From positions 1 to 49,146 of the forward strand of contig CACLIK010000004.1 of the NCBI GenBank assembly GCA_902606965.1: a stretch of DNA of 49,146 bases, written 5' to 3'. Position 1 is the stretch's first letter. Each line of letters begins with the position of its first letter. Of the stretch, positions 1 through 26,930 are shown piece after piece. Position numbers and translations under genes: made by a program. The notes beneath the pieces are model-generated. The model was not told the origin of the DNA, did not search any database, and worked only from the letters and a program-made list of their open reading frames with translations. The DNA comes from an uncultured marine group I thaumarchaeote (lineage in GTDB: Archaea > Thermoproteota > Nitrososphaeria > Nitrososphaerales > Nitrosopumilaceae).

Positions 1-459
1 GCAAAGAAATTGCCAGAACACATACCAAATCTTGCAATACTAGACGGCGATGAAATGAGAGAGTTATTATCGCCAAACGAAGATTTTTCAAGAAGTGGTA
101 TTATCAATCACAACAAGAAAGTTGCTAACATAGCCAAATTACTTTTAGAACATAATGTTTCTGTATGTGTTTCAAAAATTAGTCCTTTTATTGAAAATAG
201 AGATGACGCACGTCAAATCTTAAAAGATCACAATTTTCTTGAGGTCTACGTTAAATGTTCTATTGATTCATGCGAGAAAAGGGATGTGCGTGGAATGTAT
301 AAGAAGGCACGCGGTGGTGAAATGTCTAATTTTATAGGAATTCATGTTACTTATGAACCACCAACCAATCCTGAATTAGTTGTGGATACTGAAAATTCTA
401 CAATTGATGATTCTGTACAAAAAGTACTTGACTGGATAGAAAAAAAACAAATTAAGTGA
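1..459 (+). CDS. cysC: Adenylylsulfate (APS) kinase, C-terminal part; 5' end off the window
   Basis: Phosphorylates adenosine 5'-phosphosulfate with ATP to give PAPS, the sulfate donor for sulfotransferases. The reading frame is open from base 1, so the gene starts upstream and the P-loop (GxxxxGKS) lies outside the window. Visible family motifs in order are LDGDEMRELL, ISPF followed by an R-rich helix, EVYVKCSIDSCEKRD, YKKARGGEMSNFIG, and YEPPTNPE ending in VDT. The usual DRxxNIRR stretch after the LDGD region is altered (RSGIINHNKK), so the enzyme is divergent. In a surface-glycan island it probably supplies PAPS for sulfation, but no sulfotransferase is visible here. The assignment is firm at family level; activity is inferred. 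Confidence 0.85.
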   Translation, partial: AKKLPEHIPNLAILDGDEMRELLSPNEDFSRSGIINHNKKVANIAKLLLEHNVSVCVSKISPFIENRDDARQILKDHNFLEVYVKCSIDSCEKRDVRGMYKKARGGEMSNFIGIHVTYEPPTNPELVVDTENSTIDDSVQKVLDWIEKKQIK

Positions 460-533: not shown

Positions 534-1103
534 ATGCTAATTATTTCACAAAATTTAACAAATTATGAAGTAGATATCCCAAAGGATGCAGTTTTTAGAA
601 TAAACCTTGCCTGGGTTAATGATTTAAATGAATTACAGACAATTTTGAAAAAACATAAAACACGTAAAATATTTTTGGATTTACCCACGAATAGGACTAA
701 ACCACCAAACAACAAATACAGTATAGATGAACTCATTCCAATAATAAAATCTAATCAAAACATTAAGTACTTTGCAATATCAAATATCAACTCTCTTAAG
801 GATCTAGAGATATATGTAGATATTATTCCTAAAGATGTAATTCTTGTTCCAAAAATTGAAAGCGTAGAAGGTGTTGCAAACATAAAACCAATCACGGACG
901 CATTAGGTACTAACAAGATTATAATGCTTGATCATGATGATCTACATTCATCTATTATCAAGGCCAACCAACCAATATCAAAATTCTTAGAGTGTTTTAA
1001 TACGTTGACAGAATATTGCAAAAGCAATAATGTTATCTTATTGCGTACTATTGGCGTAGTTTTTAGTGATCAAGAGAAAAAAGTATCAGATTATATTGGA
1101 TAA
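534..1103 (+). CDS. Pyruvate-kinase-like / HpcH-like TIM-barrel mini protein (189 aa)
   Basis: A short soluble protein resembling the core barrel of pyruvate kinase without its B and C domains. It has RINLAW near residue 23, KIFLDLPTNR near 45, a FAISNINSLKDLE strand-helix near 80, and VPKIESVEGVANI near 103, which matches the KIE-x-EG metal/substrate motif of pyruvate kinase and HpcH/CitE aldolases. LDHDDL near 132 sits where pyruvate kinase has its second metal aspartate region. Real pyruvate kinases are about 470 aa, so this is not a housekeeping copy. It lies between APS kinase and a CDP-glycerol-type transferase, so a role with a PEP or pyruvate-like substrate in glycan modification is possible. 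Exact reaction unknown. Confidence 0.6.
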   Translation: MLIISQNLTNYEVDIPKDAVFRINLAWVNDLNELQTILKKHKTRKIFLDLPTNRTKPPNNKYSIDELIPIIKSNQNIKYFAISNINSLKDLEIYVDIIPKDVILVPKIESVEGVANIKPITDALGTNKIIMLDHDDLHSSIIKANQPISKFLECFNTLTEYCKSNNVILLRTIGVVFSDQEKKVSDYIG

Positions 1104-1119
1104 AAAATTTGAAGCCACG

Positions 1120-2526
1120 ATGTTAACGAAGTACAAAAAATTAATTTTATTTTCGGTTGGATTTCTAACATTACATCAGTTTTTTGTTTCTCCTGCGTAT
1201 GCTTACATTGATCCAGTTACTGGAAGCACAATTATTACATTAATTGCTGGTGCACTCGCGGCTGGTGCAATGACTTTGAAATACTATTGGTTTCGAATAA
1301 AATCAAAAATTTCTGGTGACCATTCTCAAGAAAATGAAGCAGACACAATTGACAAATCTGATTTAGAATCTGGTTTTGTTTCAGAATGGGCTGAATTAAA
1401 AAAAATTAATCGATTAAGTCAGGATGAACGTTCAATCATATTTTATGCTGAAAATAAGGCGTCAATGAATCATTTTCAGCTGTTAATCCATGAATTAACA
1501 GAAAAAATGAATTTGCAAATATGTTATGTTACATCAGTTAAGAATGATCCAGTATTATCTGCTAAAAACCAAAAAATTCTGCCATTTTATATCGGTGATG
1601 GTACAGCACGAACAAAATTCTTCTCTTCATTAAAAGCAAGAATTTTAGTTACTGATATGCCAGATTTGGGTAAATTCCACATAAAAAGATCTGAAGAATA
1701 TCCTGTTCACTACATTTACCTATTTCATTCAATGTACAGTGTTCATTCGTACCTAAGAAAAGGTGCAGTGGATAATTATGACACAATTTTTTGTGTTGGT
1801 CCTCATCAAGTCAAAGAAATTCGAGAAACAGAAAAGGTGTATAGTCTGAAAGAAAAAAAATTGATCAATTATGGATATGGTAGATTAGATACATTATTAC
1901 AAAATAAGAGAAAGTCTCAAACAACAAATTCTCATGCTAAAGATTTGATCATAATTGCACCATCATATGGAGATAATAACCTACTTGAAACATGCGGAAT
2001 CGAACTAATTGATATTCTATTAAAATCAGATTTCAGGGTTATAGTGAGACCACACCTAAGAACACTGAGAGATTCTACAGAACTGATTGATTCAATAAAG
2101 CAAAAGTTTGAAAAAAATCCTGATTTTGTTTTCGAAACAGGCGTGATTAAGTTTGATTCATTAAATAATTCTGTATGTATGATCTCAGATTGGTCAGGCA
2201 TTTCGTTGGAATATGCATTCACTTTCGAACGCCCAGTTATTTTTATTGACGTTCCAAAGAAGATCTTAAACCCAAATTGGAGCGATATTACATTAGAACC
2301 TATTGAAACATCCATTAGAGATCAAATCGGTCACGTAGTTTCACCCAATAATTTGCAAGAAATTCTAGAGCTCACTAAAATTTTAGGCAAAAACACTCAG
2401 GATATTAGTAAATTAATCAAGGAGATACGTGAAAAAACAGTCTATAATATTGGTGAATCAGCAAAAATTGGGGCTGAATATATTAGACAGTTACATAACG
2501 AATCTAAAAACTCCAAAAATACTTGA
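1120..2526 (+). CDS. Membrane-anchored CDP-glycerol-type glycerophosphotransferase (GT-B)
   Basis: Start chosen at the ATG at 1120. It gives a clean signal-like N-terminus (lysines, then a hydrophobic stretch ending SPAYA) and 16 nt after the previous stop; a longer frame from 1066 would overlap that gene. After the signal comes YIDPVTGS and a membrane segment ending in MTLKYYWFRIKSK, a module also present alone in the small protein at 22257. From about residue 85 it is a GT-B enzyme of the CDP-glycerol glycerophosphotransferase (TagB/TagF) type: YLFHSMYSVHSYLRKGA, then IFCVGPHQ, NYGYGRLDTLL, IIIAPSYGDN, RPHLRT and SDWSGISLEYAF. Family members transfer polyol-phosphate units to polymers. The 468 aa encode one catalytic domain. 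The substrate cannot be read from sequence. Confidence 0.75.
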   Translation: MLTKYKKLILFSVGFLTLHQFFVSPAYAYIDPVTGSTIITLIAGALAAGAMTLKYYWFRIKSKISGDHSQENEADTIDKSDLESGFVSEWAELKKINRLSQDERSIIFYAENKASMNHFQLLIHELTEKMNLQICYVTSVKNDPVLSAKNQKILPFYIGDGTARTKFFSSLKARILVTDMPDLGKFHIKRSEEYPVHYIYLFHSMYSVHSYLRKGAVDNYDTIFCVGPHQVKEIRETEKVYSLKEKKLINYGYGRLDTLLQNKRKSQTTNSHAKDLIIIAPSYGDNNLLETCGIELIDILLKSDFRVIVRPHLRTLRDSTELIDSIKQKFEKNPDFVFETGVIKFDSLNNSVCMISDWSGISLEYAFTFERPVIFIDVPKKILNPNWSDITLEPIETSIRDQIGHVVSPNNLQEILELTKILGKNTQDISKLIKEIREKTVYNIGESAKIGAEYIRQLHNESKNSKNT

Positions 2527-2538
2527 ACGTAATCCGAA

Positions 2539-3642
2539 TTATTTTTTTTCCTTAACTATAGGATTTACTATTGCTAAAAAGTCCTTAGCTAGTGTATTCC
2601 AATTGAATTTTTCAATAATTAATTTTTTTGCTGCCTTACCCATTTCTTTTGCAGCAATTTCATTTTCCAAAATAAACGAGATTTTTTCTATCCACTGTTC
2701 AGCATTTCCCTCGTCAATTAAAAATCCAGTTTTTCCATCATAAATCATCTCTGGAATTCCCCCAACGTTACTTGCAATGATGGGTTTTTCCATAGACATT
2801 GCTTCTCTACACGATAATGGTGTTGTATCTATTCCTGTTGCTAGAGCGTAAATATCAATTTCTGTTAGAAATTGTCTAACATTTTCGGGATATTCCTCCC
2901 ATGGAAATTTTCCTAACCAATGGAAATTATCAAAAGCATCTAGTTCTTGCAGAACACGTTCCTGATATTGTCCAAAGCCAACCCAATAGAAATGAATATT
3001 TGGCATTGATTTTATTGCTTTTTTTAGGACTAACATTTCTTTTGCTTTTCCCCAGACAAATGCATGTTGTAATAAACCTACACAAGGATGTTTCAGATTC
3101 ATACCTTTTGATGGATACCAACGTGATGTATCCAATCCTTCAAGAAAATGAAAAGTTTTGGTATTTGGATGATGTTCTCTGATCACATCATGAAGGTAGT
3201 CTGCAGTCATAAACACTCCATCACACTTTTCAAATACTTCATTAGCAATCTTGTGCCTTTGATTTGCTACAGCACGCATAACAGGATCTTTATAGATTGT
3301 TTCTTTGGCCCATTTATGCTCTAACCAAATGTTTCCCCTAAGATATACAAATAATGGTATTTTGTTATTTATCACTTCAAGACCAAACTTATTTTGCCTA
3401 TCAACAAATACAGCATCAGGAGAAAATTCTTTTATAATTTTTTTAAGTTTTTTATTACCTTCAATTACTTTTTTGATTTGTTTACTAGGAAAACCAACCA
3501 CATAATCCGTGTCTTTAATAAATTTGCATTCGACTCCTAATTTTGATAAGGCTATACCAAACTCCTTTAAATGAAAAAACTTATTCTCATCACCATATGC
3601 AATTAATAGTTTCAACTGTTTGTTCCACCTATAATTTTTCAA
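2539..3642 (-). CDS. Glycosyltransferase family 4 (group 1)
   Basis: A 367-aa retaining GT-B glycosyltransferase. The N-terminal domain starts with a beta strand LKLLIAYG. The C-terminal donor domain carries the family signature: FYWVGFGQ near residue 220, a helix FLTEIDIYALATG, then CREAMSMEKPIIAS followed by NVGGIPEMIYDGKTGFLID, the GT4 nucleotide-sugar binding loop with its EX7E-like acid. No membrane segment, so it acts at the cytoplasmic face. The start is a TTG; no ATG lies upstream of the first strand. It converges on the plus-strand gene ending at 2526 with 12 nt between stops and is divergent from the methyltransferase at 3706. Sugar specificity unknown. Confidence 0.85.
   Translation of the reverse strand: MKNYRWNKQLKLLIAYGDENKFFHLKEFGIALSKLGVECKFIKDTDYVVGFPSKQIKKVIEGNKKLKKIIKEFSPDAVFVDRQNKFGLEVINNKIPLFVYLRGNIWLEHKWAKETIYKDPVMRAVANQRHKIANEVFEKCDGVFMTADYLHDVIREHHPNTKTFHFLEGLDTSRWYPSKGMNLKHPCVGLLQHAFVWGKAKEMLVLKKAIKSMPNIHFYWVGFGQYQERVLQELDAFDNFHWLGKFPWEEYPENVRQFLTEIDIYALATGIDTTPLSCREAMSMEKPIIASNVGGIPEMIYDGKTGFLIDEGNAEQWIEKISFILENEIAAKEMGKAAKKLIIEKFNWNTLAKDFLAIVNPIVKEKK
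2542..2549 (+). terminator. Oligo-T run after the CDP-glycerol-type transferase gene
   Basis: Eight consecutive T residues begin 16 nt after the plus-strand stop, in the tail-to-tail junction with the minus-strand GT4 gene. Archaeal RNA polymerase terminates at such runs; use here is inferred. Confidence 0.3.
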
Positions 3643-9395: not shown

Positions 9396-9417
9396 ACTCT
9401 GATTTTTGCTTCGCAAT

Positions 9418-9426
9418 GTATAATAC
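9418..9426 (+). promoter_or_regulatory. TATA-like box for the SDR gene at 9448
   Basis: GTATAATAC centred about 26 nt before the ATG at 9448 fits a leaderless archaeal promoter in the 52-nt gap after the previous gene. Confidence 0.4.
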
Positions 9427-9447
9427 ATGTTTAACATTTGAATTTCT

Positions 9448-10413
9448 ATGCGTATTTTTATTACTGGCACGACTGGATTTTTGGGCCAGCAATTATCAAA
9501 TTCATTGCTAAAAAAAGGTCATAAAATTGGAACATTAGCTAGAAATGTAGCAAAATCCGATCGTGCAATTGCTTCAAATACTGAATCAATGATACAGGGT
9601 GAAAAAAATAAAGGAGTATCATATTATTTTGGTGATCTAACTGATTATCTTAACATTCAAGATGTTTTAGCCAATTTTAAACCAGATGTAATAATTCATC
9701 TTGCAGCACAAACGTCAGTTGCTTATAGTTTTACTCATACTACTGAAGTATTCAATGTAAATTTCCTAGGTGTTGTGAATATGGCAGAAGCTGCTCGTAG
9801 AGTTCTTCCTAAACTCAAGAGATTTATTTTTTCTGGATCTGTAGAAGAATATGGAATACAAACCAAATTTCCTACAAAAGAAACTGCAGAACTAAGAGCT
9901 GCGAGTCCATATGGTGTTGCAAAAATTGCAGCAGAAAAACATCTAAAATACCTGTATCAGGCTTATGGATTTCCAGCAATTATATTCAGGAATGCAAACT
10001 CGTATGGAAGAAGATACAATCATCAATTTGTAATAGAGAGTACAATCTATCAGATGTTGCAGGGAAAATCTCTAATTAAATTAGGTGATCCAACTCCTTA
10101 TCGTGATTTTATTTTTGAACCAGACTTACTTTCTGCATATATTTTAGCTACTGAAAGTAAGAATAAAAAAATTATTGGAGAATCAATTAATATTGGAACT
10201 GGAAAATCACTGTCAATTCGGCAACTTGCTGAAAAAATTCGAAAAATTACAGGATATAAAGGACAAATTAAATGGAATAGTTTTCCAAAAAGATCTCTTG
10301 AAATTCCAAAATTAGAAGTTGATAATTCGAAAGCAAAAAAATTATTGAAATGGAAACCAAAATATTCTCTTAATAAAGGACTACAAATCACTGCATCATA
10401 TTATGAGAAATAA
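9448..10413 (+). CDS. Nucleotide-sugar 4,6-dehydratase-like SDR
   Basis: Extended SDR of 321 aa. The N-terminus MRIFITGTTGFLGQQL gives TGxTGFLG, followed by HLAAQTSVAYSFTHTTE with the GDP-mannose/CDP-glucose dehydratase-like AAQxxVxxS pattern, FSGSVEEYG, and the catalytic YGVAK (Tyr155, Lys159). RNANSYGRR and PYRDFIFEPDL complete the substrate domain. The best guess is a 4,6-dehydratase or epimerase producing a 4-keto-6-deoxy sugar for a nearby aminotransferase. It starts at ATG 9448 behind a TATA-like box and is followed after 36 nt by a methyltransferase. Confidence 0.82.
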   Translation: MRIFITGTTGFLGQQLSNSLLKKGHKIGTLARNVAKSDRAIASNTESMIQGEKNKGVSYYFGDLTDYLNIQDVLANFKPDVIIHLAAQTSVAYSFTHTTEVFNVNFLGVVNMAEAARRVLPKLKRFIFSGSVEEYGIQTKFPTKETAELRAASPYGVAKIAAEKHLKYLYQAYGFPAIIFRNANSYGRRYNHQFVIESTIYQMLQGKSLIKLGDPTPYRDFIFEPDLLSAYILATESKNKKIIGESINIGTGKSLSIRQLAEKIRKITGYKGQIKWNSFPKRSLEIPKLEVDNSKAKKLLKWKPKYSLNKGLQITASYYEK

Positions 10414-10449
10414 ATTAAATTATTTCTTAATTTATTAGAGTAATTTAGA

Positions 10450-11121
10450 ATGAAAAAACTATCAAATCTGGAATTCAAAAAGAAATTTGATTCTATTGCA
10501 GATACGTATGAAAAAGTTTCAAATTCATATACTATTACCAGACGGGCAGAATCATTTAAAATAGATTCAGCGGAGGTCATACTTGAAACTGGTTCTGGAA
10601 CAGGAATAATTTCTGGATTGATTGATAAATCAATCATATGTACCGATATTTCTTACGAAATGTGTAAACAGGCTGTTAGAAATAACCGAGAAAATGTAAT
10701 TTGTTGCGATGCGGAAAAACTCCCTATACGTAGTAATATTCTAGATGGTATTTTATCGGCAGAAACGATTTATTATCTTGACAATCCACAGCATTTTCTT
10801 AGCGATTCCTATAGTGCATTAAAAAAAAAATCTAAACTTATGATTACAGTATTTAATCAAGATATGAAATTGGTAGATAGAATACGTTCATTCTTAAGAA
10901 TATTTGATAAAAATCAGTATTTTGATGATGGGCAAAGGGATTTTATTAGTATGGGTTATTTAAAACAAATTCTTGAAAAAAATAATTTCAAGATAACATC
11001 AATTAGAAAAAAAGTGATTTTTCCGTTCGGATCATTACATAAACTAAATTTGTACTTGGAGAAAGGCAGACTAAATTATTTTTGTTATTTTATAATAATC
11101 GAAGCTAAATGCATCAAATAA
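10450..11121 (+). CDS. Class I SAM-dependent methyltransferase
   Basis: A 223-aa soluble methyltransferase of the ubiE/Methyltransf_11 type. Motif I is VILETGSGTGIISGL near residue 38, then CTDISYEMC, CCDAEKLPIRSNILDGILS as the motif II region and LKKKSKLMITVFN as motif III. Glycine-rich loop and acidic residue are intact, so activity is expected. The C-terminal third is short and basic. It follows the SDR at 9448 on the same strand. The acceptor is probably a sugar or lipid-linked intermediate, by context only. Confidence 0.78.
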   Translation: MKKLSNLEFKKKFDSIADTYEKVSNSYTITRRAESFKIDSAEVILETGSGTGIISGLIDKSIICTDISYEMCKQAVRNNRENVICCDAEKLPIRSNILDGILSAETIYYLDNPQHFLSDSYSALKKKSKLMITVFNQDMKLVDRIRSFLRIFDKNQYFDDGQRDFISMGYLKQILEKNNFKITSIRKKVIFPFGSLHKLNLYLEKGRLNYFCYFIIIEAKCIK

Positions 11122-11154
11122 CAATTCATTATGAATTAGAATAAATCAATAAAT

Positions 11155-11166
11155 CGCTTAAAATAC
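11155..11166 (+). promoter_or_regulatory. TATA-like box for the GT2 gene at 11188
   Basis: CGCTTAAAATAC, with TTAAAATA centred about 27 nt before the ATG at 11188, in the 66-nt gap after the methyltransferase. Fits a leaderless promoter for the GT2/GT-C pair. Confidence 0.42.
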
Positions 11167-11187
11167 ACTCAAATTTTTCATTCATTA

Positions 11188-11853
11188 ATGAGCACAGCGA
11201 TTATTGTCCTAACTTTAGATGAAATTGATGGGGTTAGAGCGATTATGCCTAAACTGAATAAAGATTGGGCTGAAGAAATAATTCTTGTCGACGGTGGTTC
11301 AAAAGATGGAACCATTGAAGAAGCAAAAAAGTTGGGTTTTGAGGTAATTCATCAAAATAATAGGGGTGAAGGAAACGCATGTAGAATAGGAGTTGAAAAA
11401 ACCAATTCTGATTTTATTATGTTTTTTAGTCCAGATGGGAATGACGAACCAGAAGAAATTCCAAAAATGATTAATAAAATTAGTGAAGGTTTTGATATAG
11501 TTCATATTTCTAGATTTGGTAAATATTCAGAAAGTAGTGATGCTGGGCCATTTGATAGATTTGGTAACAGAATGTTTACATTTCTAGTTAACGTATTTTT
11601 TGGAGGGCATTACAGTGATGCACTTAATGGATTTAGAATTATTCGAAGAGATATTATGTTAAAACTAAAAACAGATGCACAGCATTTGAATATTGAACAA
11701 CAAATTTGTATCAGAGCAGCAAAAAAAGGTTACAAAGTTTTTGAAATTGATGGACGTGAGCCTAACAGGATTGGTGGTCAAAGAAAAATGAAACCTTTAC
11801 CTACTGGAGCTAGTCTTAGCTGGCAGATAATCAAAGAATTTATTTCTTGGTGA
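11188..11853 (+). CDS. Glycosyltransferase family 2, dolichyl-phosphate-sugar-synthase-like
   Basis: A 221-aa GT-A enzyme without membrane helices. It begins STAIIVLTLDEIDGV, has LVDGGSKDGTIEEA (residues 33-46) as the nucleotide-binding loop, and SPDGNDEPEEIP near 86 in place of the usual DADGQH metal motif. DALNGFRIIRRDI follows in the acceptor region. Such enzymes charge dolichyl phosphate with a sugar, which a GT-C enzyme then uses. A GT-C gene starts 9 nt after its stop, supporting that pairing. Confidence 0.8.
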   Translation: MSTAIIVLTLDEIDGVRAIMPKLNKDWAEEIILVDGGSKDGTIEEAKKLGFEVIHQNNRGEGNACRIGVEKTNSDFIMFFSPDGNDEPEEIPKMINKISEGFDIVHISRFGKYSESSDAGPFDRFGNRMFTFLVNVFFGGHYSDALNGFRIIRRDIMLKLKTDAQHLNIEQQICIRAAKKGYKVFEIDGREPNRIGGQRKMKPLPTGASLSWQIIKEFISW

Positions 11854-11862
11854 GTATTTTAA

Positions 11863-13494
11863 GTGAAAAAAATTATTTTTTTTCTTTTGATAGCAATTGT
11901 AATTGCATCTATTCCATTAAAATTATACACAGTAGATTTTTCAAGTCCTCCTCATACAGATGATTTTGGTTATATTTTATATGCAATACAATACAGTCAG
12001 GGTGATTTTTTCCTCAGTCAGAAAAAAAATCCTGGTTGGGCACTTTTTTTAACTCCATTTGTATCAGTATTAAATTCAAATGATTTTCTTGATTATTCAA
12101 GTATTGCTAGGATTCTAACACTGACAATTTCTACAATAACAATTTTTCCAATGTATATACTTGCAAGAAAATTTTTTAACGAAAAGTATTCTCTGGTTGC
12201 AGCAGGATTATTTGCGTTTGAACCACATCTGAATTATAATTCAGGAACTGCACTTTCTGAACCTTTATTGATTTTAGTTCTCATTACATCAATGATATTT
12301 ATTCTACAAAGTAAGACAAAATATCATTATCTAGCTTTCATTTTTACTGGTCTTTGTTGGTGGGTAAGATTAGAGGTCATATATCCTGTTCTTGCAATTA
12401 TTTTGATATATTTTGTAATTCATAGATCTAAATTAAATTCTCGAAGAAATTTTTCAATATGTATAATTATTCTGTTGATTACAATCTCACCACTCTTTAT
12501 TCAACGAGATCTGCAATTCGATGATCCTTTCTATGTATGGTATACTGGAACTATTCTTGCAGATGATTATTCTGAATTACTGACTAGCCCAGAAGATGTA
12601 GGGATAACCTCCTTTGTGGAAAAACATGGTGCTCTTGGATTATTGGATAGATTAGTAAACGGATTTGTAAATTTATTTAATATTTTATTCAGAATTTTAT
12701 ATCCATATTTGTTTATTTTAATACCATTTGGAATTTTATTTTCTTTAAGACCTATAGATCAAAAACTGAAGAACATTAAAGCAAACTGGATTATGATTTT
12801 AAGTATAATTACTGTATTAACAATTCCATTTGCAATAATAGATGAAAGAAGATTCCTATTTTCTTTATTCCCATTTTTGATCATTTTCTCAGTTATCCCG
12901 ATTCAAAGAGTAACAAATTATGGTCTGAGTACATTCAGTTTTAATAATAGACAAAAATCCATCTTTTTGATAGTAGTTGTTGGTGTAGTATTTCTTCTTG
13001 CTACTACATTTACAATGGGAGTGGGTGAGTTTGGTTATGGCTTACCAAATTCAGCTCTGGAACAAGAAAAACTTGAGTTTACCGAGTATTTGGTTGAAAA
13101 TTATGATGGTAGAATTTTGAGGGATCAAATAGTTACAGATTATCTAGCTTATGTATCTCTAACATCAGACGATAATGATTTTAAATCATTTAAATCTCCA
13201 CGAGGAAAGAATCCATACCCAGATCTCTATGAACCAGGAAAAATTGTATGGTTAAGTGTAAATGGAAAAACTATGAAAGAATTGATTATTAACGGAGAAC
13301 TTGTAGAACTAAAATATGTAGGAATTCTTGAAAGTGGAAGTTATTTTTTTCCATTTCTAAATGATTTGTATCATAATGAAGAAGAATATCCATTCATGAA
13401 AAAAATTTTTGATTCAGCCGAGATGAATTACAAAGAATTTAAAGTAAAAGTATTTGAAATTAACTATCAGAAATTTCATGAACTTAATGATTAA
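11863..13494 (+). CDS. Multi-membrane GT-C glycosyltransferase (PMT/ArnT-like)
   Basis: A 543-aa integral membrane protein with about ten hydrophobic helices. The first extracytoplasmic loop holds HTDDFGY (about residues 32-38), matching the acidic catalytic motif of GT-C enzymes that use polyprenyl-phosphate sugars. ARKFF, EPHLNYNSGTALSEPL and DERRFLFSLFPF are PMT/GT39-type marks. The C-terminal region of about 150 residues is soluble and probably extracytoplasmic. The GTG start lies 9 nt after the GT2 gene, so the two are probably cotranscribed. It resembles the convergent protein at 13503 in plan and motifs. Confidence 0.8.
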   Translation: MKKIIFFLLIAIVIASIPLKLYTVDFSSPPHTDDFGYILYAIQYSQGDFFLSQKKNPGWALFLTPFVSVLNSNDFLDYSSIARILTLTISTITIFPMYILARKFFNEKYSLVAAGLFAFEPHLNYNSGTALSEPLLILVLITSMIFILQSKTKYHYLAFIFTGLCWWVRLEVIYPVLAIILIYFVIHRSKLNSRRNFSICIIILLITISPLFIQRDLQFDDPFYVWYTGTILADDYSELLTSPEDVGITSFVEKHGALGLLDRLVNGFVNLFNILFRILYPYLFILIPFGILFSLRPIDQKLKNIKANWIMILSIITVLTIPFAIIDERRFLFSLFPFLIIFSVIPIQRVTNYGLSTFSFNNRQKSIFLIVVVGVVFLLATTFTMGVGEFGYGLPNSALEQEKLEFTEYLVENYDGRILRDQIVTDYLAYVSLTSDDNDFKSFKSPRGKNPYPDLYEPGKIVWLSVNGKTMKELIINGELVELKYVGILESGSYFFPFLNDLYHNEEEYPFMKKIFDSAEMNYKEFKVKVFEINYQKFHELND

Positions 13495-16052: not shown

Positions 16053-17225
16053 TCAAACTCTGTAATTTTTAATATTGTTGATAACCAGATCTTGCTGTTT
16101 TTTGGGAATAGCCGGATAAAATGGCAATGATAAACTTTCTTTATAGATTTGTTCTGAATTATCTAGTTTACCATATGTTTTTGTGAGATTCTTGTATCCT
16201 GAAAATCGATGCAGTGGTTTATAGTGTAATGAAACCTCTATACCCGCTTTTTTCAACTTTTTGAATACTTGATCACGATTTTGACCAAATTCATTTTTTA
16301 TTCTAATAATGTAAAGATGGTATGTGTGCTCTTTCTTCCTAAAAATTTCGGGTGTGATAATTTCAGGAATTTTTTCTAATTGTTTTGAATAATACTTGGA
16401 TGCTAGAAAACGTTTAGAATTTAACGAATCGATTCTTTTTAGTTGGCTTAATCCTAAGGATGATCTTATTTCATCAAGCCTATAATTAAAACCTGGTTCA
16501 CTTATATCATAATCCCATGGTTTTCCTTTTGAATATCTATTTGCTAGGCTTCTTGTTAAGCCGTGGGATCTAGCAGAAGTAACATATTCCGCAATACGTT
16601 TAGAACTTGTTATTACCATTCCTCCTTCAATAGTTGTGAAATTTTTTGTCGGATAAAAGCTAAAACATCCTATATCACCAAATGTGCCAGCATGTTTATT
16701 GTTTAGTTTTGTGCCAATAGCATGCGCACAATCTTCAATTAACAAAAGATTATTTTTCTTGGCAATTTTTTTTATTTCAGACATTTTACAAATCTTACCA
16801 GCTAAATGGACAGGTAAAATTGCTTTAGTTTTAGATGTGATATTTTGTTTTATCGAATCTAATGAAATATTCATATCGTTATAATTTACATCTGCTAGTA
16901 CAGGAGTTGCACCTGTTAATAATACAGAATTTGCTGTAGCAACAAATGTAATATCTGGAATTATTACTTCATCTCCCTTCTTTAGTCCTAAAGCTTTGAG
17001 AGCTAGATGTAGTGATGCAGTTCCATTCGAAACTCCAACCGCATATTTTGATCCAGTGTATTTTGCAAATTCTTGTTCGAATTTTCTTAGTTGTGGTCCA
17101 TCAGTTAGCATACGTGAGTTTAATGCATTCATAACAACTAATTTATCAGATTTTGAAATATCTGGTACAAAAAATGGCACACGTGTTTTTTTGTTGTGGA
17201 ATACATCTATCGTTTTCTTTGTCAT
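16053..17225 (-). CDS. DegT/DnrJ/EryC1/StrS-type sugar aminotransferase, second copy
   Basis: The start is set at ATG 17225 (MTKKTIDVF). A longer frame to 17339 would run into the PEP mutase gene and adds no conserved sequence. The 390-aa protein has VSNGTASLHLALKALG (residues 65-80), PVHLAGKICKM, EDCAHAIG (164-171) and the PLP lysine Lys194 in FYPTKNFTTIEGG. It makes an amino sugar on a nucleotide carrier. It lies 25 nt after pepM on the same strand and so is probably cotranscribed; whether it has anything to do with phosphonate is unknown, since the family acts on sugars. Confidence 0.88.
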   Translation of the reverse strand: MTKKTIDVFHNKKTRVPFFVPDISKSDKLVVMNALNSRMLTDGPQLRKFEQEFAKYTGSKYAVGVSNGTASLHLALKALGLKKGDEVIIPDITFVATANSVLLTGATPVLADVNYNDMNISLDSIKQNITSKTKAILPVHLAGKICKMSEIKKIAKKNNLLLIEDCAHAIGTKLNNKHAGTFGDIGCFSFYPTKNFTTIEGGMVITSSKRIAEYVTSARSHGLTRSLANRYSKGKPWDYDISEPGFNYRLDEIRSSLGLSQLKRIDSLNSKRFLASKYYSKQLEKIPEIITPEIFRKKEHTYHLYIIRIKNEFGQNRDQVFKKLKKAGIEVSLHYKPLHRFSGYKNLTKTYGKLDNSEQIYKESLSLPFYPAIPKKQQDLVINNIKNYRV

Positions 17226-17250: not shown

Positions 17251-18141
17251 TCAATTAAGATCCATTTTTTTAACTTCTTCTTCAACAAAAGATTCGTGAT
17301 CTCTAATCTTATGCATTCCCTGTAATTTGAAAAGATCATCCATTGAAGCTAATTTTGTCTCCAAGTCGTCAAGACTTTTGATCTTTGACATTTGTTTAAC
17401 AACATCAGATATCGCAGAAAATGCTGCTAACGTAGTTTGATGTGCAAATACAACCATTTTCACTCCACGAGATTTTAATTCATCCAAAGTTACTGTGGGA
17501 AATGCTGTTGGGACAGACATTATTGGTATTTTTCCTTTCCATTTTTTGTAAAATTCGAAAATTTCAGCAGGATCTTTTTTTCGTGCATGAACGAAAATGA
17601 TATCAGCTCCAGCCTTCTCATACGTGTTAGCCCTATCTAACGCTTCTTCCACTCCTAAATCAGCAATCAATGCCTCAGTTCTGGCTATAATTACAAAATT
17701 ACTATCCTTTTTTGCATTTTTTGCAGCTACCAACTTTGCCACAAAATCTTTTTTAGAAATCATTTCTTGTTTTCCATCTTTAAACAAACTATTTTGTTTT
17801 GGAAATGTTTTATCTTCAATACATATACCACCTATGCCAGCGTTTTCAAATTTTTTTACTAAATGAGCCACATTACTAGGTCCACCATAGCCCGTATCAC
17901 AATCCGCAATTACTGGAATGTCACATGCTTCCGCCATGAATGTAACTGCATCTAAAAGTTCAGTCATAGTAAGTATACCAGCATCAGGTAGCGCTCTTGT
18001 TGAAGCTATACCAAAACCACTTGCCCAAATAGCATCAAAACCATTCATTTCTGCAAGTTTTGCAGACATAACATCAAATGCACCACAAACTTTTACAAAT
18101 TGTTTTTCCTGCATTTTCTTCATAAGATCATTTTTAGGCAT
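17251..18141 (-). CDS. pepM: Phosphoenolpyruvate phosphomutase (phosphonate biosynthesis)
   Basis: Converts PEP to phosphonopyruvate, the C-P bond-forming entry step to phosphonates. The diagnostic motif IEDKTFPKQNS (residues 108-118) separates PEP mutase from isocitrate lyase relatives. From memory of the Mytilus enzyme, D58, D85, D87, E114, K120, N122, S123, R159 and H190 all have counterparts here at a constant offset of five: D53, D80, D82, E109, K115, N117, S118, R154, H185. So it should be active. The start at ATG 18141 is decided by a strong Shine-Dalgarno; GTG 18153 lies inside that site. It sits between a sugar epimerase and an aminotransferase. No phosphonopyruvate decarboxylase is visible in the window. 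Confidence 0.93.
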   Translation of the reverse strand: MPKNDLMKKMQEKQFVKVCGAFDVMSAKLAEMNGFDAIWASGFGIASTRALPDAGILTMTELLDAVTFMAEACDIPVIADCDTGYGGPSNVAHLVKKFENAGIGGICIEDKTFPKQNSLFKDGKQEMISKKDFVAKLVAAKNAKKDSNFVIIARTEALIADLGVEEALDRANTYEKAGADIIFVHARKKDPAEIFEFYKKWKGKIPIMSVPTAFPTVTLDELKSRGVKMVVFAHQTTLAAFSAISDVVKQMSKIKSLDDLETKLASMDDLFKLQGMHKIRDHESFVEEEVKKMDLN

Positions 18142-18150: not shown

Positions 18151-18159
18151 CACCTCCTT
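18151..18159 (-). promoter_or_regulatory. Strong Shine-Dalgarno site of pepM
   Basis: Read on the minus strand, AAGGAGGTG ends 9 nt before the ATG at 18141. It is nearly fully complementary to the 16S rRNA tail and fixes the start. Most genes around it show no such site. Confidence 0.75.
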
Positions 18160-18205: not shown

Positions 18206-19117
18206 TTATTTATCAGAATTAATTTCTTTTCTATGCTTTACAACTTTTTTAATTCCTTCATCCAGAGTAATTTTAGGTGAGTAATTAAGAATTTTTTTTG
18301 CTTTATTGATATCAGGAATTCTTTTCATGATTTCTGTTCTATTTCTATTAGATTCTTCAAAAGGGATAAATTTAATCTCACTCTCAGAATTAGTTAAAGA
18401 AATTATTTTCTCAGCTAGTTCTTTAATTGAAATTGGATTACTATCATTTCCAACATTTATGATTTCACCATTAGCTGTTTGTAGTACGCTTTGGAATGCA
18501 TCAACAATATCAGAAACGTAGCAAAATGCTCTAACCTGTGAACCATCACTGTGAATACTGATTAATTTATTTGATATCGCTTTATCAACAAATGCTGGCA
18601 ACACCCATTGTGTATCTTGCATAGCACCATACACGTTAAACAGACGAAATATAGTATATTGTATTCCATAACTCTTGGAATATGATTTTATGTATTCTTC
18701 AGAAGCAAGTTTACTTATTCCGTATGTTGTAATGGGAGTTATTGGATCATTTTCCTTGATGGGAATTTTTGCTGGTTCGCCATAAATCTCTGATGAAGAT
18801 GAAAATATTATTTTTTTAATATTATTAATCCTACAGGCTTCTAAAACATTTTTTGTTCCACCTAGATTGATATTTAGTGTTTGTATAGGATCTTTTTCAA
18901 CATTTACAACTCCAAGTGCAGCAGCAAGATGAATAACAAGATCACAATTTACTATTGAATTTTTCACATTTTCTAAATTTGTGACATCACCCTTGATGAA
19001 GTTTATATCACTCATATTTTTTTTTACATCAAATATGGTTACATCATGTTCTTGTTTTAATTGCATTGCAAGGTAGGAACCGATAAAACCTGAACCACCA
19101 GTTATAATAATTTTCAA
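18206..19117 (-). CDS. UDP-sugar 4-epimerase-like SDR
   Basis: A 303-aa extended SDR. TGGSGFIG spans residues 6-13, IHLAAALGV follows, then SSSSEIYG and catalytic YGISK (Tyr132, Lys136). RLFNVYG, CYVSDIVDAF and INVGNDSNPISI are typical of GalE/UDP-glucuronate epimerase-like enzymes. The start is TTG 19117, directly before the first strand; no ATG is available. It is upstream of pepM on the same strand with 64 nt between them. Likely makes the epimer of a UDP sugar for the glycosyltransferases nearby. Confidence 0.85.
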   Translation of the reverse strand: MKIIITGGSGFIGSYLAMQLKQEHDVTIFDVKKNMSDINFIKGDVTNLENVKNSIVNCDLVIHLAAALGVVNVEKDPIQTLNINLGGTKNVLEACRINNIKKIIFSSSSEIYGEPAKIPIKENDPITPITTYGISKLASEEYIKSYSKSYGIQYTIFRLFNVYGAMQDTQWVLPAFVDKAISNKLISIHSDGSQVRAFCYVSDIVDAFQSVLQTANGEIINVGNDSNPISIKELAEKIISLTNSESEIKFIPFEESNRNRTEIMKRIPDINKAKKILNYSPKITLDEGIKKVVKHRKEINSDK

Positions 19118-19202: not shown

Positions 19203-20381
19203 TTATTTGATCATTTTTTCATATACTTTTAGTATTTTTTTAGCCATTTCCTTTGAATTACATTCGTTGTGAACAAATTCATAACCTTGCATGCCAAGAT
19301 ATTCACATTTTGTTTTATCGTTTAAAAGTTCAATAATCATTCTACTTAATTCTTCAAAATTTTCTGGTTCGATTAAAATTGAATCCTTCTTATCATGTAA
19401 TGTGTATGGTATGCCGTGAGCTTTTGTACTAATAGTTGGTTTCTTGAATGCAAATCCTTCTAGTGGTGTAAGTGGTGATAGCTCCCATCTTGATGGCAGG
19501 ACTAAAAATTTACTTTCATTATATGCAGAAAGCACATCCTCCCTAGGTGGATTATTAATTATTTTAACCATGTCGGCCAAATTCATTTCTTTAATCATAT
19601 GTAACATTTTTTTTTCAAACCCAAAATCGACTCCCATAATAACTAATTTCGTAGTAGAGATTAGAAAATGATTTTTTATCAAATTCATTGCATGTAGTAA
19701 CGTGTCAATTCCTTTGACTTCATGATATCTTCCCAGAAATAAAAAATAATCATCATTTATTCCATATTTCTTTTTAAAACTAACAGATGATTTCATATTT
19801 TCTAAATTTATACCATTTTTAATTATCTCCATTTTACTTTCATTAGTTAATTCAGAAAAAATTTTCTTTTCGTATTCATTTGCTGTTATGATTTTTTTTG
19901 ATTGCTTTATGATGAAATGAATAATAGGTAATTGCATTTTATAGAGAATTTTTGTCCATATTCCTTTATTTTGTAGATCAGGATGAGTTGTCAGACCCCC
20001 TTGATCAGAGATAATCAATGGTATTTTCTTTTTCTTTGCAACCAATGCCGCAATAAATGATTGAAAACTTCTAATCCCTATTGTATGTATAATATCATAT
20101 TCATCATTCATCATATGAAAATACATTCCAGGATTGATAAAGAATAATTTTATTGAAAACCATACGTGTGAACGCTTGATCTTGAAGTTTTGTATGTTTT
20201 CTTCCTTGGGTAATTTTTTATTGAATGTTTTAGAATTATTTGCAAAATCTAAATCTGTTGTGTAAATAGTTACCTCATGTTCTGCGTTGGATAATTCTCT
20301 TGCTAAGTCTACACCTAAAAATAAAATACCACCAAATTGTGTTGCTGGTAGTGATGCGGGACAAACTATTCCTATCTTCAT
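19203..20381 (-). CDS. Glycosyltransferase family 4 (group 1)
   Basis: A 392-aa GT-B enzyme. The N-terminus has the glycine-rich acceptor loop (PATQFGGILFLGVDLAREL), then IHTIGIRSFQSF. The donor domain has FLFLGRYHEVKGIDTLLHA near residue 212 and KFLVLPSRWELSPLTPLEGFAFKKP near 288, with the EX7E motif altered at its first acid but Glu present in LEGFAF. It ends with SKEMAKKILKVYEKM. No membrane segment. ATG start. It lies between a sulfatase-fold membrane protein and the epimerase. Sugar unknown. Confidence 0.87.
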   Translation of the reverse strand: MKIGIVCPASLPATQFGGILFLGVDLARELSNAEHEVTIYTTDLDFANNSKTFNKKLPKEENIQNFKIKRSHVWFSIKLFFINPGMYFHMMNDEYDIIHTIGIRSFQSFIAALVAKKKKIPLIISDQGGLTTHPDLQNKGIWTKILYKMQLPIIHFIIKQSKKIITANEYEKKIFSELTNESKMEIIKNGINLENMKSSVSFKKKYGINDDYFLFLGRYHEVKGIDTLLHAMNLIKNHFLISTTKLVIMGVDFGFEKKMLHMIKEMNLADMVKIINNPPREDVLSAYNESKFLVLPSRWELSPLTPLEGFAFKKPTISTKAHGIPYTLHDKKDSILIEPENFEELSRMIIELLNDKTKCEYLGMQGYEFVHNECNSKEMAKKILKVYEKMIK

Positions 20382-20506: not shown

Positions 20507-22141
20507 CTAGGTTCCCTCTTGAAGAATGAGACTAGTTACATCCTCAAACCAAAATGGTTTTTTTACAGATAAACCCCAATATGCTCGATCTTCCAGTATT
20601 TCGTAATTACTTCCATAGTACGCATTAAAAACAGTTCGAAATGTGTTCACATTAGTTCGATCATCAGTTAACATTTTTCTATGTTTTTCATCAGGAAAAT
20701 AGATTGCACTTAGATTGGATAATTTCTGAAAGACATTATCGTTTGTAGGATCCTCTATGTTAACACCAAAAGCAGAACCATGATCACTTTGAATAATTAT
20801 AATAGGATTTTTTTCTTTCTCAATGATTCTATCAATAAACTCTAATGATTTCTTATTTGCAAATTGTACTTGATACATAAATTGTGTTTTAATATCCCAG
20901 CTACTATCTGTAAATTCAGGATGATTCATAGCAATCAAGGGCTTTCCTGGAGTTACTGGTTCTCCATTAGGACCAAAAATCAATGGATAGTGTGGCAGCA
21001 TGATATGTGACCAAACAAATACAGGCTCTTCAAAATAATCACTTATTTTTGGTAATTCTTCAAAATCACATAGTATAATCTGTCTTTGTTGTTCCTCAGC
21101 CCATCTTTCTATGAAATATCCTATCATGCTAGTATTTCCTACTGCATCAAGCAATCTATTATCCATCAGATGAATACTTTTGTAACATGGAGAGAGATCC
21201 ACTAAAGGTAACTCATAAAGATATATTGTAGCCGTACCTAGCTTAACAGTTTTGTATCCCATAGACTTAAAATTTTTTATTACTTGATTATCTGGGTATA
21301 AACCATAATCTTTTCCTACTATTGGATTATAGTCTATTGAATCTTCTCCAAGATCATCAGCTAAAAAGTTTATGTAATCCATATTCATGGTAGAGACAAT
21401 TGACACACCACTAAAAGAATAATTTGCATAACTATTTTCTGCAATATGGAATCCTTTCTGTTCAAGGGCATTTGTAAATTCACTATTATCAAAATTCACA
21501 TATTCTTTGAGTACATCATTACGAGGATAACCATCTAAAATTATGAAATAAACATTGGGAAGTGAGTCATTTTCAGAAATTGAGAATGAATGATCTTCAA
21601 AATAAGAAGAGAAATCTATTTTTTCATTAGAGAAAAAGTCAAAGTACCAAGATGTGTTTCGTTCAATTAAACATTCATTACATGCAAATGTTTCAATTCC
21701 AACCATCACCAAAATGACAGATATGAAGACGATTGATACTGTATTTACAATTGATGTAGCATTATCAAGTGTTCTTTTAGTTTTAATGATTAAAAATGAA
21801 CCAAGTCCAAATAATATGATAAAGACAGGAAGTAGTATTTTATTACTACCCAAATCTATGTTGCCTACATCAACCTGATCCAGCACATTATAGGTATGAC
21901 CAAATGAGAAGAATACTATGAAAGCTAGTGATACAATAAGTGCTGCCTTTTTTGTATTTTTCAAAATATATTTTAGACATAAGAATAATAGTGTAGCACT
22001 TCCTACAATTAATAGAGTTGGGAGTATGAATTCTTCAAGCTTAATCAAACCAATATTTACAGAATAAATTGCTACTATTGGAAAAAATGCAATTAAAAAT
22101 GGATGAAAAATTTTTGGGTTTTTCTTTAACTCCACACTCAT
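20507..22141 (-). CDS. Membrane sulfatase/phosphotransferase-fold protein (LtaS/EptA-like superfamily)
   Basis: Start taken at ATG 22141; a TTG at 22183 would add a charged stretch before the first helix. About five membrane helices in residues 10-150 are followed by an extracytoplasmic alkaline-phosphatase-fold domain. Metal and nucleophile marks are YFIILDGYPRND, then NYSFSGVSIVSTMNMDYIN, where relatives have a Thr in YxxT and this one has Ser, WSHIMLPHYPLIFGPNG and IIQSDHGSAFG. The superfamily includes sulfatases and enzymes that move phosphoglycerol or phosphoethanolamine to glycans; helices plus domain favour a transferase or surface hydrolase. In a locus with PepM it could move a phosphonate group, but that is speculation. 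Confidence 0.72.
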   Translation of the reverse strand: MSVELKKNPKIFHPFLIAFFPIVAIYSVNIGLIKLEEFILPTLLIVGSATLLFLCLKYILKNTKKAALIVSLAFIVFFSFGHTYNVLDQVDVGNIDLGSNKILLPVFIILFGLGSFLIIKTKRTLDNATSIVNTVSIVFISVILVMVGIETFACNECLIERNTSWYFDFFSNEKIDFSSYFEDHSFSISENDSLPNVYFIILDGYPRNDVLKEYVNFDNSEFTNALEQKGFHIAENSYANYSFSGVSIVSTMNMDYINFLADDLGEDSIDYNPIVGKDYGLYPDNQVIKNFKSMGYKTVKLGTATIYLYELPLVDLSPCYKSIHLMDNRLLDAVGNTSMIGYFIERWAEEQQRQIILCDFEELPKISDYFEEPVFVWSHIMLPHYPLIFGPNGEPVTPGKPLIAMNHPEFTDSSWDIKTQFMYQVQFANKKSLEFIDRIIEKEKNPIIIIQSDHGSAFGVNIEDPTNDNVFQKLSNLSAIYFPDEKHRKMLTDDRTNVNTFRTVFNAYYGSNYEILEDRAYWGLSVKKPFWFEDVTSLILQEGT

Positions 22142-22227
22142 AATAATTTTCAAAAAAGCTTCTTTAAGTCTCTTGTTTAACAAAAATTAGTATCCGCCAT
22201 AAAATTAATCATTTAAACCGTTAAAGA

Positions 22228-24198: not shown

Positions 24199-25851
24199 TT
24201 ACTCATCACTAGTATCTAATACTTCATTTAACCGTTGGATTCCAATACTATAGAATGCTAATTGGCGTTCAAAATGATCCTTGTGTAATGGTAACATTGA
24301 GATGAATAGCAATCCCTCAATTAGCTTTATTTTATTTAAATTCCATCGACTTTGAATTAATTCATCTAGGTATCTACAAATCTGTTGATGGTTTTTTGGT
24401 TCAAAAACTTTCATAGACACATGATTATTTTCAATTAATGATGCAGTGTACAAACCATTAACAATTGTGTCAAATCCACCTACTAGAGAATGACGCAATT
24501 TTGCCACATCATATTTCACATCACCAAACATAGTACTGCCCCATTTACCTCTAGGATCAATTAATTTGAAATCTTTACTTTTAAAATCACAAAAAACATT
24601 TGAGAAACATAAATCACCATGTATCAAGCAATTATCGTCTTCATGATGCAGATCATGTATTCGTAATTCAATATCTTCCTTAATCGCTGGCCAATTGCGA
24701 TATTTTTTTCCATTAATTAACAGAACATCTGTCGTTAATATTTTGTTAAATAATTCATTTGAATCAGTTAATTGATTTAATCGTTCTTCTGTTTTTGTTT
24801 TGTAAATAAGATCATAATCATCAACAGTAACTATTCCAGAATGTTTTTTGAATTGATTTAAAATTTCAAATAGTTCATCTAACACTTCCATCCAAAGTTT
24901 TGTGGAGAAATCACTGTATAACCAGAGTTCAGCTAATGTTGGGTATTTGATATATTCAAGTTTTAGAAATGGGTTTTTTGATTGATCAGTATCTATAATC
25001 TTGGGTGTTAGTCTAGATAAACTATCAGGAATTTTTAGGTACCATTCAATTTCATTAATTAATTTTGTAATATTTTGACTTGTTTTAGTAACAATCTTAG
25101 ATTCACGATCAAATTTTAATGAATTAAAATATCTAGCCTTTAGAAACATCTGTTTAGACACAAAATAATTTTCTACATGACCAGCATCATACCACTCATT
25201 GCATATTTCTGTTGAAATTGTTTTTTTCTTTTTGTATTTTTTAATTAAATCACTAATTTCTATGCGTTCCTGTCCATTAAATTCTGTACGTCTATGTTTC
25301 AATGATTCTAGATCATCAAAGTAGTACACACCAACTAATGCATATTGTTCATTAGTTTTCTGCAAATCTTTTTCTTTATCAAAAATTAAGTCTAATTTTC
25401 CATCCTTAGATGTTACTACACACCAGTTTGCCGGTCTTTCAAAATTATCTGACATTAGGACAAAACTATTATTGTTTTGAATAAGATTAGAAAGGTCATT
25501 TTCGACAAGTGTGTCACCTAAAATTACAAGAAGTTGTTGTTCTTCTATTTTCTCAATTGCAGTTAAAATTGAATTTCCAGGAGGTTTTTCAAAATCAGTA
25601 GTTATGAAATTTACCTTTATTTGATCCTCATATTGTTCTGAAATAATTTTTTCCAAGATTTCTTTTTTGAAACCGGTTGTTATTGATATTTTTTTGAATC
25701 CATCCTTCAATAATTTATCAATAATTCTAAAAATAGCAGGTTTTCCGTGTAACGGAATTAATCCAGATGGAATACTTCCAAAAATACTTTCTAATTCTTT
25801 TTCAATTTTACCTGCACTTAATATCAGTACATGAATGTTATCGTAATTCAA
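24199..25851 (-). CDS. Bifunctional nucleotidyltransferase-like / choline-kinase-like (APH) fusion
   Basis: A 550-aa fusion. Residues 1-235 have a sugar-nucleotidyltransferase fold: VLILSAG, PSGLIPLHGKPAIFRII, VILGDTLVEND (Asp113) and WYDAGHVENYF. The usual GxGxR loop after the first strand is missing, so this half may be degenerate or specialised. Residues 260-550 are an aminoglycoside/choline-kinase fold: Brenner motif HGDLCFSN (His411, Asp413, Asn418) and the metal Asp432 in IDPRG. The order matches LicC-LicA fusions that make CDP-choline, so a nucleotide-activated small alcohol or sugar phosphate is a fair guess. TTG start overlaps the upstream stop (TTGA), with GAAAGG just upstream as a weak ribosome site. 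Confidence 0.75.
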   Translation of the reverse strand: MNYDNIHVLILSAGKIEKELESIFGSIPSGLIPLHGKPAIFRIIDKLLKDGFKKISITTGFKKEILEKIISEQYEDQIKVNFITTDFEKPPGNSILTAIEKIEEQQLLVILGDTLVENDLSNLIQNNNSFVLMSDNFERPANWCVVTSKDGKLDLIFDKEKDLQKTNEQYALVGVYYFDDLESLKHRRTEFNGQERIEISDLIKKYKKKKTISTEICNEWYDAGHVENYFVSKQMFLKARYFNSLKFDRESKIVTKTSQNITKLINEIEWYLKIPDSLSRLTPKIIDTDQSKNPFLKLEYIKYPTLAELWLYSDFSTKLWMEVLDELFEILNQFKKHSGIVTVDDYDLIYKTKTEERLNQLTDSNELFNKILTTDVLLINGKKYRNWPAIKEDIELRIHDLHHEDDNCLIHGDLCFSNVFCDFKSKDFKLIDPRGKWGSTMFGDVKYDVAKLRHSLVGGFDTIVNGLYTASLIENNHVSMKVFEPKNHQQICRYLDELIQSRWNLNKIKLIEGLLFISMLPLHKDHFERQLAFYSIGIQRLNEVLDTSDE

Positions 25852-26930
25852 TCCGAGCGCCTTTCAAAGTTTTCAATATCCCCTGGTGTTCCTAATAGAG
25901 AGAAATCATCAGCTAAATCAATCACAAATTTTTTTCCTTGCTTGATTAAAATATTGTATAATTCGGAAACATAGTATTCATTATTAGTTTTTGAGTTATT
26001 TGACAGCATCAATTCTGCAGCATTGACAAAATCTTTACCCCTAGTGAATACGTATAATCCAGTAGACGCAATATTAGAAATTGCTTCTTTTTCCTTCGTT
26101 CTTTTAACAAATTCAGAATCTAATTCAATGAAACTTAGCTTGCTATCATGAGAATTAATGGCACCCAATAATCCATCTATATTTGTATTTTTTATAGTAA
26201 GCAGTTTTGATTTTAAACGCGTTGATTCAAAATATGTATCAATATTATAGATCACTAAGGAAGATTCATTATTGATATATTTTTTTGCATGTAATACAGT
26301 TTCTACTTGTCCATCAGTAGTTTTATCTAAAAGTATTATCTCATAATTCAAACTGGGAAATTTTTTTTCCATGTTTTTTTTAATGAAATTTTTAACTTCA
26401 TATTTTTTTTCATGTTCGTCTAAACAAATGAAGATAACCTTACTAGCAATATCTAACGGTAAACTTCTTACTGACCATTCAAATAAAGTTCGTCCCTTAG
26501 TTTCAATTAGAAATTTTGGTTTAAGAATACCTTGATCTTTAAACCTTTGTCCTTTTCCAGCCATTGGAATAACAAAAATTGGTTCAATCTCTTTCATTTT
26601 CTTTTCAAGTTGTTTTACAGATGAGAATGTAATACCTAAATCATCAATGTAAACATCTCCATATGGTTTACCATAATGAATTTCATCAAATTGGACATCC
26701 CATTTTTTTAACCATTCAGAGGTTACAGGACCAATTTTTTTAATTACTTCTTCAACATTTCCATCGCAAGTTTTCATATGTCTTCCAGTATGAATAATCA
26801 AATAATGACCATCTTTTTTCCATTCTCTCATTTTTGATATAACATCCTCATTTGGTTGCACTTCAAGGTATGTCTCGTTTGGTTTTTTCAATGAACAGAT
26901 CACTCCATCTAAGTCAAGTACTATTCGCAT
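25848..26930 (-). CDS. Bifunctional HAD phosphatase / nucleotidyltransferase
   Basis: Start at ATG 26930 (MRIVLDLDGVIC); a GTG at 26945 would add five residues. Residues 1-112 are a small HAD domain of the capsule-locus type: DLDGV with Asp6 and Asp8, HTGRH near 47-51 and DVYIDDLG near 92-99. Residues 116-360 are a nucleotidyltransferase with an intact loop PMAGKGQRF (Gly125-Arg129), LKPKFLIE and NIDTYF as the metal site. It likely removes one phosphate and activates a sugar-1-phosphate or similar, acting with the fusion that overlaps it by 4 nt. HAD plus nucleotidyltransferase pairs recall the heptose route, but no heptose isomerase is visible. Confidence 0.78.
   Translation of the reverse strand: MRIVLDLDGVICSLKKPNETYLEVQPNEDVISKMREWKKDGHYLIIHTGRHMKTCDGNVEEVIKKIGPVTSEWLKKWDVQFDEIHYGKPYGDVYIDDLGITFSSVKQLEKKMKEIEPIFVIPMAGKGQRFKDQGILKPKFLIETKGRTLFEWSVRSLPLDIASKVIFICLDEHEKKYEVKNFIKKNMEKKFPSLNYEIILLDKTTDGQVETVLHAKKYINNESSLVIYNIDTYFESTRLKSKLLTIKNTNIDGLLGAINSHDSKLSFIELDSEFVKRTKEKEAISNIASTGLYVFTRGKDFVNAAELMLSNNSKTNNEYYVSELYNILIKQGKKFVIDLADDFSLLGTPGDIENFERRSD

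Follow-up and report, generated by a model that had tools for sequence, protein, structure and literature searches.

A diverged PEP mutase gene of a marine thaumarchaeote, apparently relocated away from its decarboxylase partner within a surface-glycan island

A gene for PEP mutase (pepM) is the standard marker of phosphonate production, and an adjacent gene for phosphonopyruvate decarboxylase (ppd) is often used as confirmation; a decarboxylase gene is present in 86% of pepM genomes (PMC6697681, PMC8931226, PMC9381506). The stretch of DNA analysed here (the window; 49,146 nt) is the entire contig C4 of an uncultured marine group I thaumarchaeote genome (733 kb, 46 contigs, 63% complete) and carries a pepM-like gene among sugar genes. 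An earlier note had described a PEP mutase with a complete catalytic set and no decarboxylase in sight, the partner enzyme being either elsewhere or of a different kind. What does this gene encode, and where is the partner? The gene and the element upstream of it are as follows.

17251..18141, minus strand: pepM-like gene, PEP mutase-type, 296 aa, diverged (S51A, N239H and R243L, Mytilus numbering); from TIGR02320, PDB 5unc/1m1b, the residue table and the tree.
18151..18159, minus strand: Shine-Dalgarno-like AAGGAGGTG, 9 nt upstream of the ATG at 18141; read from the sequence.

The minus-strand ORF at 17251-18141 is a real gene; it encodes a PEP-mutase-type protein of 296 aa and starts with the ATG at 18141-18139. 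Among NCBIfam models its product scored highest with TIGR02320, PEP mutase (273.6 bits), followed by phosphonopyruvate hydrolase (PPH; 238.2 bits) and methylisocitrate lyase (190.8 bits). The top score lies below the curated cut-off of TIGR02320 (319.55), which is an automatic-annotation threshold and not a functional criterion; the canonical cassette PEPM of a relative (L052; 304.2 bits) is likewise below it, an indication that the cut-off is set too high for the archaeal lineage. The nearest solved structures by sequence were the PEP mutases 5UNC and 1PYM/1M1B plus the PPH 2DUA, and Foldseek returned the same relatives from an AF2 model of the window protein (pLDDT 79.9). The protein also contains EDKTFPKQNS, a match to the EDK(X)5NS motif that is the accepted PEPM marker and distinguishes PEPM within its family (PMC6697681, PMC8931226, PMC9381506). 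With TIGR02320 as top model, PEP mutases among the best solved relatives and this motif kept, the earlier assignment to PEP mutase stands, and the gene looks like one for a diverged archaeal PEP mutase, its enzyme activity being predicted.

All of W44, S46, D58, D85, D87, E114, N122, R159 and H190 of the Mytilus enzyme, which we take to be its mutational set, are present in the window protein together with K120 and S123, and a gap-free alignment with the Mytilus enzyme confirmed the constant offset that had been claimed for the nine. The description of the catalytic set as complete holds for these nine residues but overlooks three lost invariants. Across 37 other PEPM/PPH proteins, 32 alignment columns were invariant, and the window protein keeps 29 of them, the changes being S51A, N239H and R243L; in leave-one-out comparisons the other PEPM/PPH sequences broke 0-2 invariant columns, against three here. 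The beta8 motif AN[HQ]xLR is altered to AHQTTL. In the AF2 model (pLDDT ~80), N239 lies just past strand beta8 and R243 in the opening turns of the next helix, positions that the model places at the catalytic end of the TIM barrel. In the tree, the window protein grouped with the PEPMs of its own family (support 99/99), on a branch of ~1.0 compared with 0.04-0.37 for the other members; these others formed one clade at 73-74% bootstrap, with the window protein sister to them or nested. With three invariants gone and so long a branch, the mutase activity of the protein could be reduced or changed.

Consistent with the earlier note, tblastn revealed no ppd gene or relic in the 49-kb window. The genome-wide search for the decarboxylase that the note had proposed gave no Ppd in the recovered genome (63% complete): the only profile match was a 322-aa frame at E=2.7e-4, and as a positive control the identical search recovered split Ppd in 21 relatives. 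None of the usual cassette genes, ppd, the iron alcohol dehydrogenase gene (FeADH) and mpnS among them, was found within the 49 kb of the window. The sole FeADH of the recovered genome is on contig C5; it is flanked by core genes, and we took it as a housekeeping paralogue rather than a cassette gene.

A survey of 250 family genomes found PEPM of this lineage in 22, our own included, at 52-59% identity (the match in G141 is partial). Most other family genomes have only a ~33% identical paralogue, with the motif EDQ..KRCGH where it was read. The copy of this near-universal paralogue on contig C1 of our genome (33% identity) has EDQ..KRCGH and 21 of the 32 PEPM invariants; methylisocitrate lyase better fits this C1 protein and was rejected as the role of the window protein. 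Split ppdA-ppdB, recognised as a pair of short genes, each matching one half of phosphonopyruvate decarboxylase, lie directly downstream of pepM in 21 of the 22 other family loci. The exception is G141, where pepM is broken and no ppd adjoins; its locus (L231, G141:C2, 8313-11164) is a decayed cassette in which pepM has internal stops and ppdA/ppdB are gone from between pepM and a nucleotidyltransferase gene. The usual cassette neighbours are FeADH, a MobA-like nucleotidyltransferase and sulfatase-like proteins, and about half of the other family cassettes have an MpnS-like protein, a label based on protein length, HTH composition and known cassette order. G161 carries two complete pepM-ppd cassettes (L069, L070). 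Phage, viral-contig and plasmid homologues included nothing closer than the family's own PEPMs, and a genome-contig scan returned mainly bacterial EDKTGLKKNS-type PEPMs, ~40% identical.

Immediately around the window gene lie three sugar genes, part of a conserved glycan island.

16053..17225, minus strand: DegT/PseC-type sugar aminotransferase, beginning 25 nt past the pepM stop; from NCBIfam and relatives' loci.
18206..19117, minus strand: extended SDR of the sugar-nucleotide epimerase/dehydratase type, co-inserted with pepM; from a profile match and relatives' loci.
19203..20381, minus strand: group 1 glycosyltransferase (GT) on the far side of the interrupted DegT-GT pair; from relatives' loci.

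The aminotransferase matches TIGR03588 at 383 bits. In 17 relatives' loci, DegT and GT genes of these types abut, 0-39 bp apart, with no pepM between them, whereas in the window pepM and the SDR gene stand between the two. DegT was thus probably at the site before pepM, which makes it an unlikely dedicated coupling partner, and a partner of a different kind, the other option of the earlier note, is not needed. The SDR was also considered as a dedicated partner and rejected: its homologues in relatives (50-66%) sit in NeuB-type modules, among NeuB/NeuA/GNAT/DegT genes and not beside pepM. Judged by gene order, pepM appears to have moved out of an FeADH/pepM-ppdA-ppdB cassette and lies ~15-17 kb from the presumed cassette site, at the left end of the window, where four genes precede the part shared with the nearest relative or belong to it.

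1..459, plus strand: APS-kinase-like gene truncated at the left end of the contig, ~25 N-terminal aa missing; from relatives' loci.
534..1103, plus strand: 189-aa protein without a Pfam match; homologues adjoin the phosphonate FeADH in G057, G058, G065 and G073.
1066..2526, plus strand: CDP-glycerol glycerophosphotransferase-like protein (PF04464); homologues in relatives' Ppd/FeADH cassettes.
2539..3642, minus strand: group 1 glycosyltransferase; in G078, FeADH-ppdA-ppdB comes directly after its orthologue (82%).

G078 is the nearest relative (87% identity for GT2, 89% for the 5769-type and 82% for the 2539-type protein), and its contig C16 (L230) is collinear with the left third of the window (2539-11863). 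Beside the 2539-type gene, C16 reads FeADH-ppdA-ppdB-sulfatase-like-1066-type. Within L230 (9014-12687), FeADH and ppdA are 88 bp apart with no pepM between them, a clean loss of pepM from this place. Contig C43 of G078 ends just upstream of DegT with codons reading EIKKLDL*, compared with EVKKMDLN* for the tail of the window PEPM; this pair of tails scores 30, and none of 3652 other gene tails scores above 22. Canonical PEPM tails of the family mostly read KK[ML]GY. The matching tail in the DegT slot, a stretch of seven codons, suggests that G078 has the same pepM there and ppd elsewhere in the island.

Both contig ends that would flank the missing cassette break in genes of the expected kind. 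The APS-kinase-like gene at 1-459 has a homologue between FeADH and a 534-type gene in L066, and the order in G058 is FeADH-APS kinase-534; as a phosphonate marker the APS-kinase-like gene was rejected, being widespread in the genus and not specific. Contig C2 of our genome breaks inside a sulfatase-like gene, with 33 residues lost on the ppdB side, and this gene is orthologous to the one located 3 bp downstream of ppdB in G078 (61.6%, 624 bits; next 298). All orientations fit the arrangement reversed C4, gap (FeADH, ppdA, ppdB), reversed C2. The local order differs in that the G078 cassette lies between the 2539-type and 1066-type genes, while in the window 1066 is directly beside 2539. Taken together, the break in C2 and the left-edge break of the window in FeADH-adjoining genes lead us to predict Ppd in a gap of ~2-3 kb. 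Synteny thus makes it most likely that Ppd is absent because the assembly lacks ~2-3 kb between the right end of C2 and window base 1, and the missing partner is probably an assembly artefact rather than a sign of a Ppd-free pathway. The suggestion that the partner is elsewhere gains support and becomes specific, as synteny with G078 and genus relatives puts split Ppd just off window base 1. The sulfatase-like contig end (G000:C2:53862-55303, L272) stands beside core genes resembling TFE, tRNA methyltransferase and HflX; such core genes are also near the decayed cassette of G141, which suggests a shared chromosomal island site.

The explanation that we favour, and hold to be somewhat better than an even bet, is that the window gene encodes the PEP mutase of a phosphonoglycan island, with pepM relocated away from ppd and Ppd falling in the assembly gap. 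Under this explanation, pepM would have left the FeADH/pepM-ppdA-ppdB cassette and, with the sugar-SDR gene, entered the DegT-GT slot. The enzyme would isomerise PEP to phosphonopyruvate, and the split decarboxylase (PpdA/PpdB), presumably encoded with FeADH in the ~2-3 kb gap, would pull the mutase reaction; phosphonoacetaldehyde would then be reduced to 2-hydroxyethylphosphonate, which 1066-type and/or 20507-type transferases of the island may put on the surface glycan.

Alternatively, the window gene could be a diverged second copy that is redundant or whose role in the glycan operon has changed, while a canonical pepM-ppdA-ppdB lies beyond the left edge. The long branch, the three lost invariants, the two cassettes of the relative G161 and the cassette edge genes at the contig break all agree with this. 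We nevertheless regard it as unlikely, as G078 has both a cassette without pepM (88 bp from FeADH to ppdA) and the matching pepM tail in the DegT slot, for which a single moved pepM is the simpler explanation. It is a little less probable again that the relocated PEPM was re-tuned by S51A, N239H and R243L, with an altered substrate or coupling, as part of an amino-sugar operon; if so, the product would be a phosphonosugar or acid that the ordinary cassette does not yield. A full change of function, in which a mutase-fold enzyme acts on another 2-oxo/enol acid (for example as a C-C lyase or other-substrate mutase) in sugar-acid assembly with the SDR and DegT, would account for the relocation beside sugar genes and for changes at residues invariant in 37 PEPM/PPH proteins, two of them modelled at the catalytic end of the barrel. 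We consider it improbable, given that all mutase-specific residues, N122/S123 included, and 29 of 32 invariants are kept, that G078 keeps Ppd, and that the DegT gene was probably at the site before pepM. Very improbable is a Ppd-free pathway in which the adjoining aminotransferase turns phosphonopyruvate into phosphonoalanine in the manner of PnaA: a transaminase can couple PepM (PMC11867202) and the aminotransferase gene is 25 nt from pepM, but it encodes a DegT/PseC-type sugar enzyme outside the aspartate aminotransferase superfamily of PnaA, and loci that lack pepM also have this gene next to the same GT. Finally, a PPH in a phosphonoalanine-catabolic operon (aminotransferase plus PPH), an idea that draws on the second-best family score (238 bits) and on bacterial PPH genes adjoining aminotransferases, is scarcely credible and was rejected on Asn122 (the PPH-type residue is Thr), on the tree (the window protein lies outside the starred clade of the PPHs) and on context (no phosphonate transporter, and an aminotransferase of another class).

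If the favoured explanation is correct, what would the product be? Besides the genes at 534 and 1066, one further gene bears on this question.

20507..22183, minus strand: sulfatase-like membrane protein, a candidate phosphonyl/phosphoryl transferase; from orthologues and enrichment.

Orthologues of the 20507 protein at ~50% or more are present only in the pepM-positive genomes G057, G065, G073 and G165, and family-level enrichment gave p 9e-6, a p-value that ignores shared ancestry. Its homologue in L230 matches PF00884, and a low-confidence AF2 model (pLDDT 53) has a helical N-terminus. Homologues of 1066 occur inside the Ppd/FeADH cassettes of G057 (82%), G065, G168 and G078, and come after 534-type genes in G057 and G065. 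The 534-type gene directly adjoins FeADH in G057, G065 and G073; such genes are also present in 12 genomes that lack pepM, and the enrichment (p 4e-4) again ignores shared ancestry. The gene at 534-1103 is a possible accessory phosphonate gene. This family has no convincing PDB relative, and a KIES motif seen by eye resembles that of pyruvate-kinase/HpcH-type barrels. Marine microbes are known to carry phosphonate genes next to glycan genes (PMC8931226, PMC9381506).

The earlier expectation of a phosphonate on the glycan is plausible in view of the phosphonate-associated accessory genes 20507, 534 and 1066 in the island, and its link to methylphosphonate is not supported. The genome search for methylphosphonate synthase that the note had proposed gave no MpnS in our genome (63% complete) or in G078, nor in G058, G066, G073, G079 and G165, among them several Ppd-bearing relatives, and six other genomes did give a match to this query; genome incompleteness weakens this negative. 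Within that limit, a hydroxyethylphosphonate-type decoration is as likely as methylphosphonate.

Other parts of the window also have glycan-related features. At 29467-32221, inside the glycan island, stands a row of genes for an FkbH-like protein, an acyl carrier protein, a MaoC-like dehydratase and a holo-ACP-synthase-like protein; it is conserved, in part at least, in relatives (L193-L195, L226) and resembles an acyl-ACP module that would serve glycan decoration. At 24199-26945, a nucleotidyltransferase whose long C-terminal extension looks kinase-like by eye lies beside an HAD phosphatase-nucleotidyltransferase fusion, a pair conserved in G057 and G058. Two NeuB-like genes (PEP-using sialic acid synthase), at 38580-39311 and 47697-48521, encode 243 and 274 aa and so fall short of the 329 positions of the family model.

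The main interest of this locus lies in the apparent relocation of pepM, in the three altered invariants near the active site, and in the caution that it imposes on neighbourhood-based annotation: as pepM and ppd are unlinked here, neighbourhood-based surveys of fragmented genomes would misjudge the lineage. It also sharpens the phosphonoglycan idea for these archaea, with phosphonate genes embedded and apparently recombining within one surface-glycan island.

Compared with the archaeal pepM-ppdA-ppdB cassette of the methylphosphonate type (as in Nitrosopumilus maritimus; here L052-L071), the window has the same enzyme lineage (99/99), the glycan-island setting and shared accessory genes of the 534, 1066 and 20507 types. 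It differs in that pepM has been displaced and sits with a sugar SDR gene inside a DegT-GT pair, that ppd, FeADH and mpnS are absent from the 49 kb, and that three invariant residues are changed. The phosphonoalamide pathway (PnaD/PnaA; PMC11867202) is the precedent for a pepM that works without ppd through a transaminase, but PnaA belongs to the aspartate aminotransferase superfamily, whereas the window neighbour is of the DegT/PseC type and is conserved without pepM. The PPH of Variovorax (2DUA) is a close homologue of the window protein (38% identity in the Foldseek alignment), but it has Thr in place of Asn122 and a catabolic context, and the window protein has Asn. The PEP mutases of Mytilus (1PYM) and Streptomyces (5UNC) have the same fold as the window protein (Foldseek TM ~0.86) and share with it the nine catalytic residues and EDK(X)5NS, whereas the window protein is 36-42% identical to them and carries S51A, N239H and R243L. 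As a natural PEPM variant without three otherwise invariant residues at the predicted catalytic mouth, it offers a direct test of their role.
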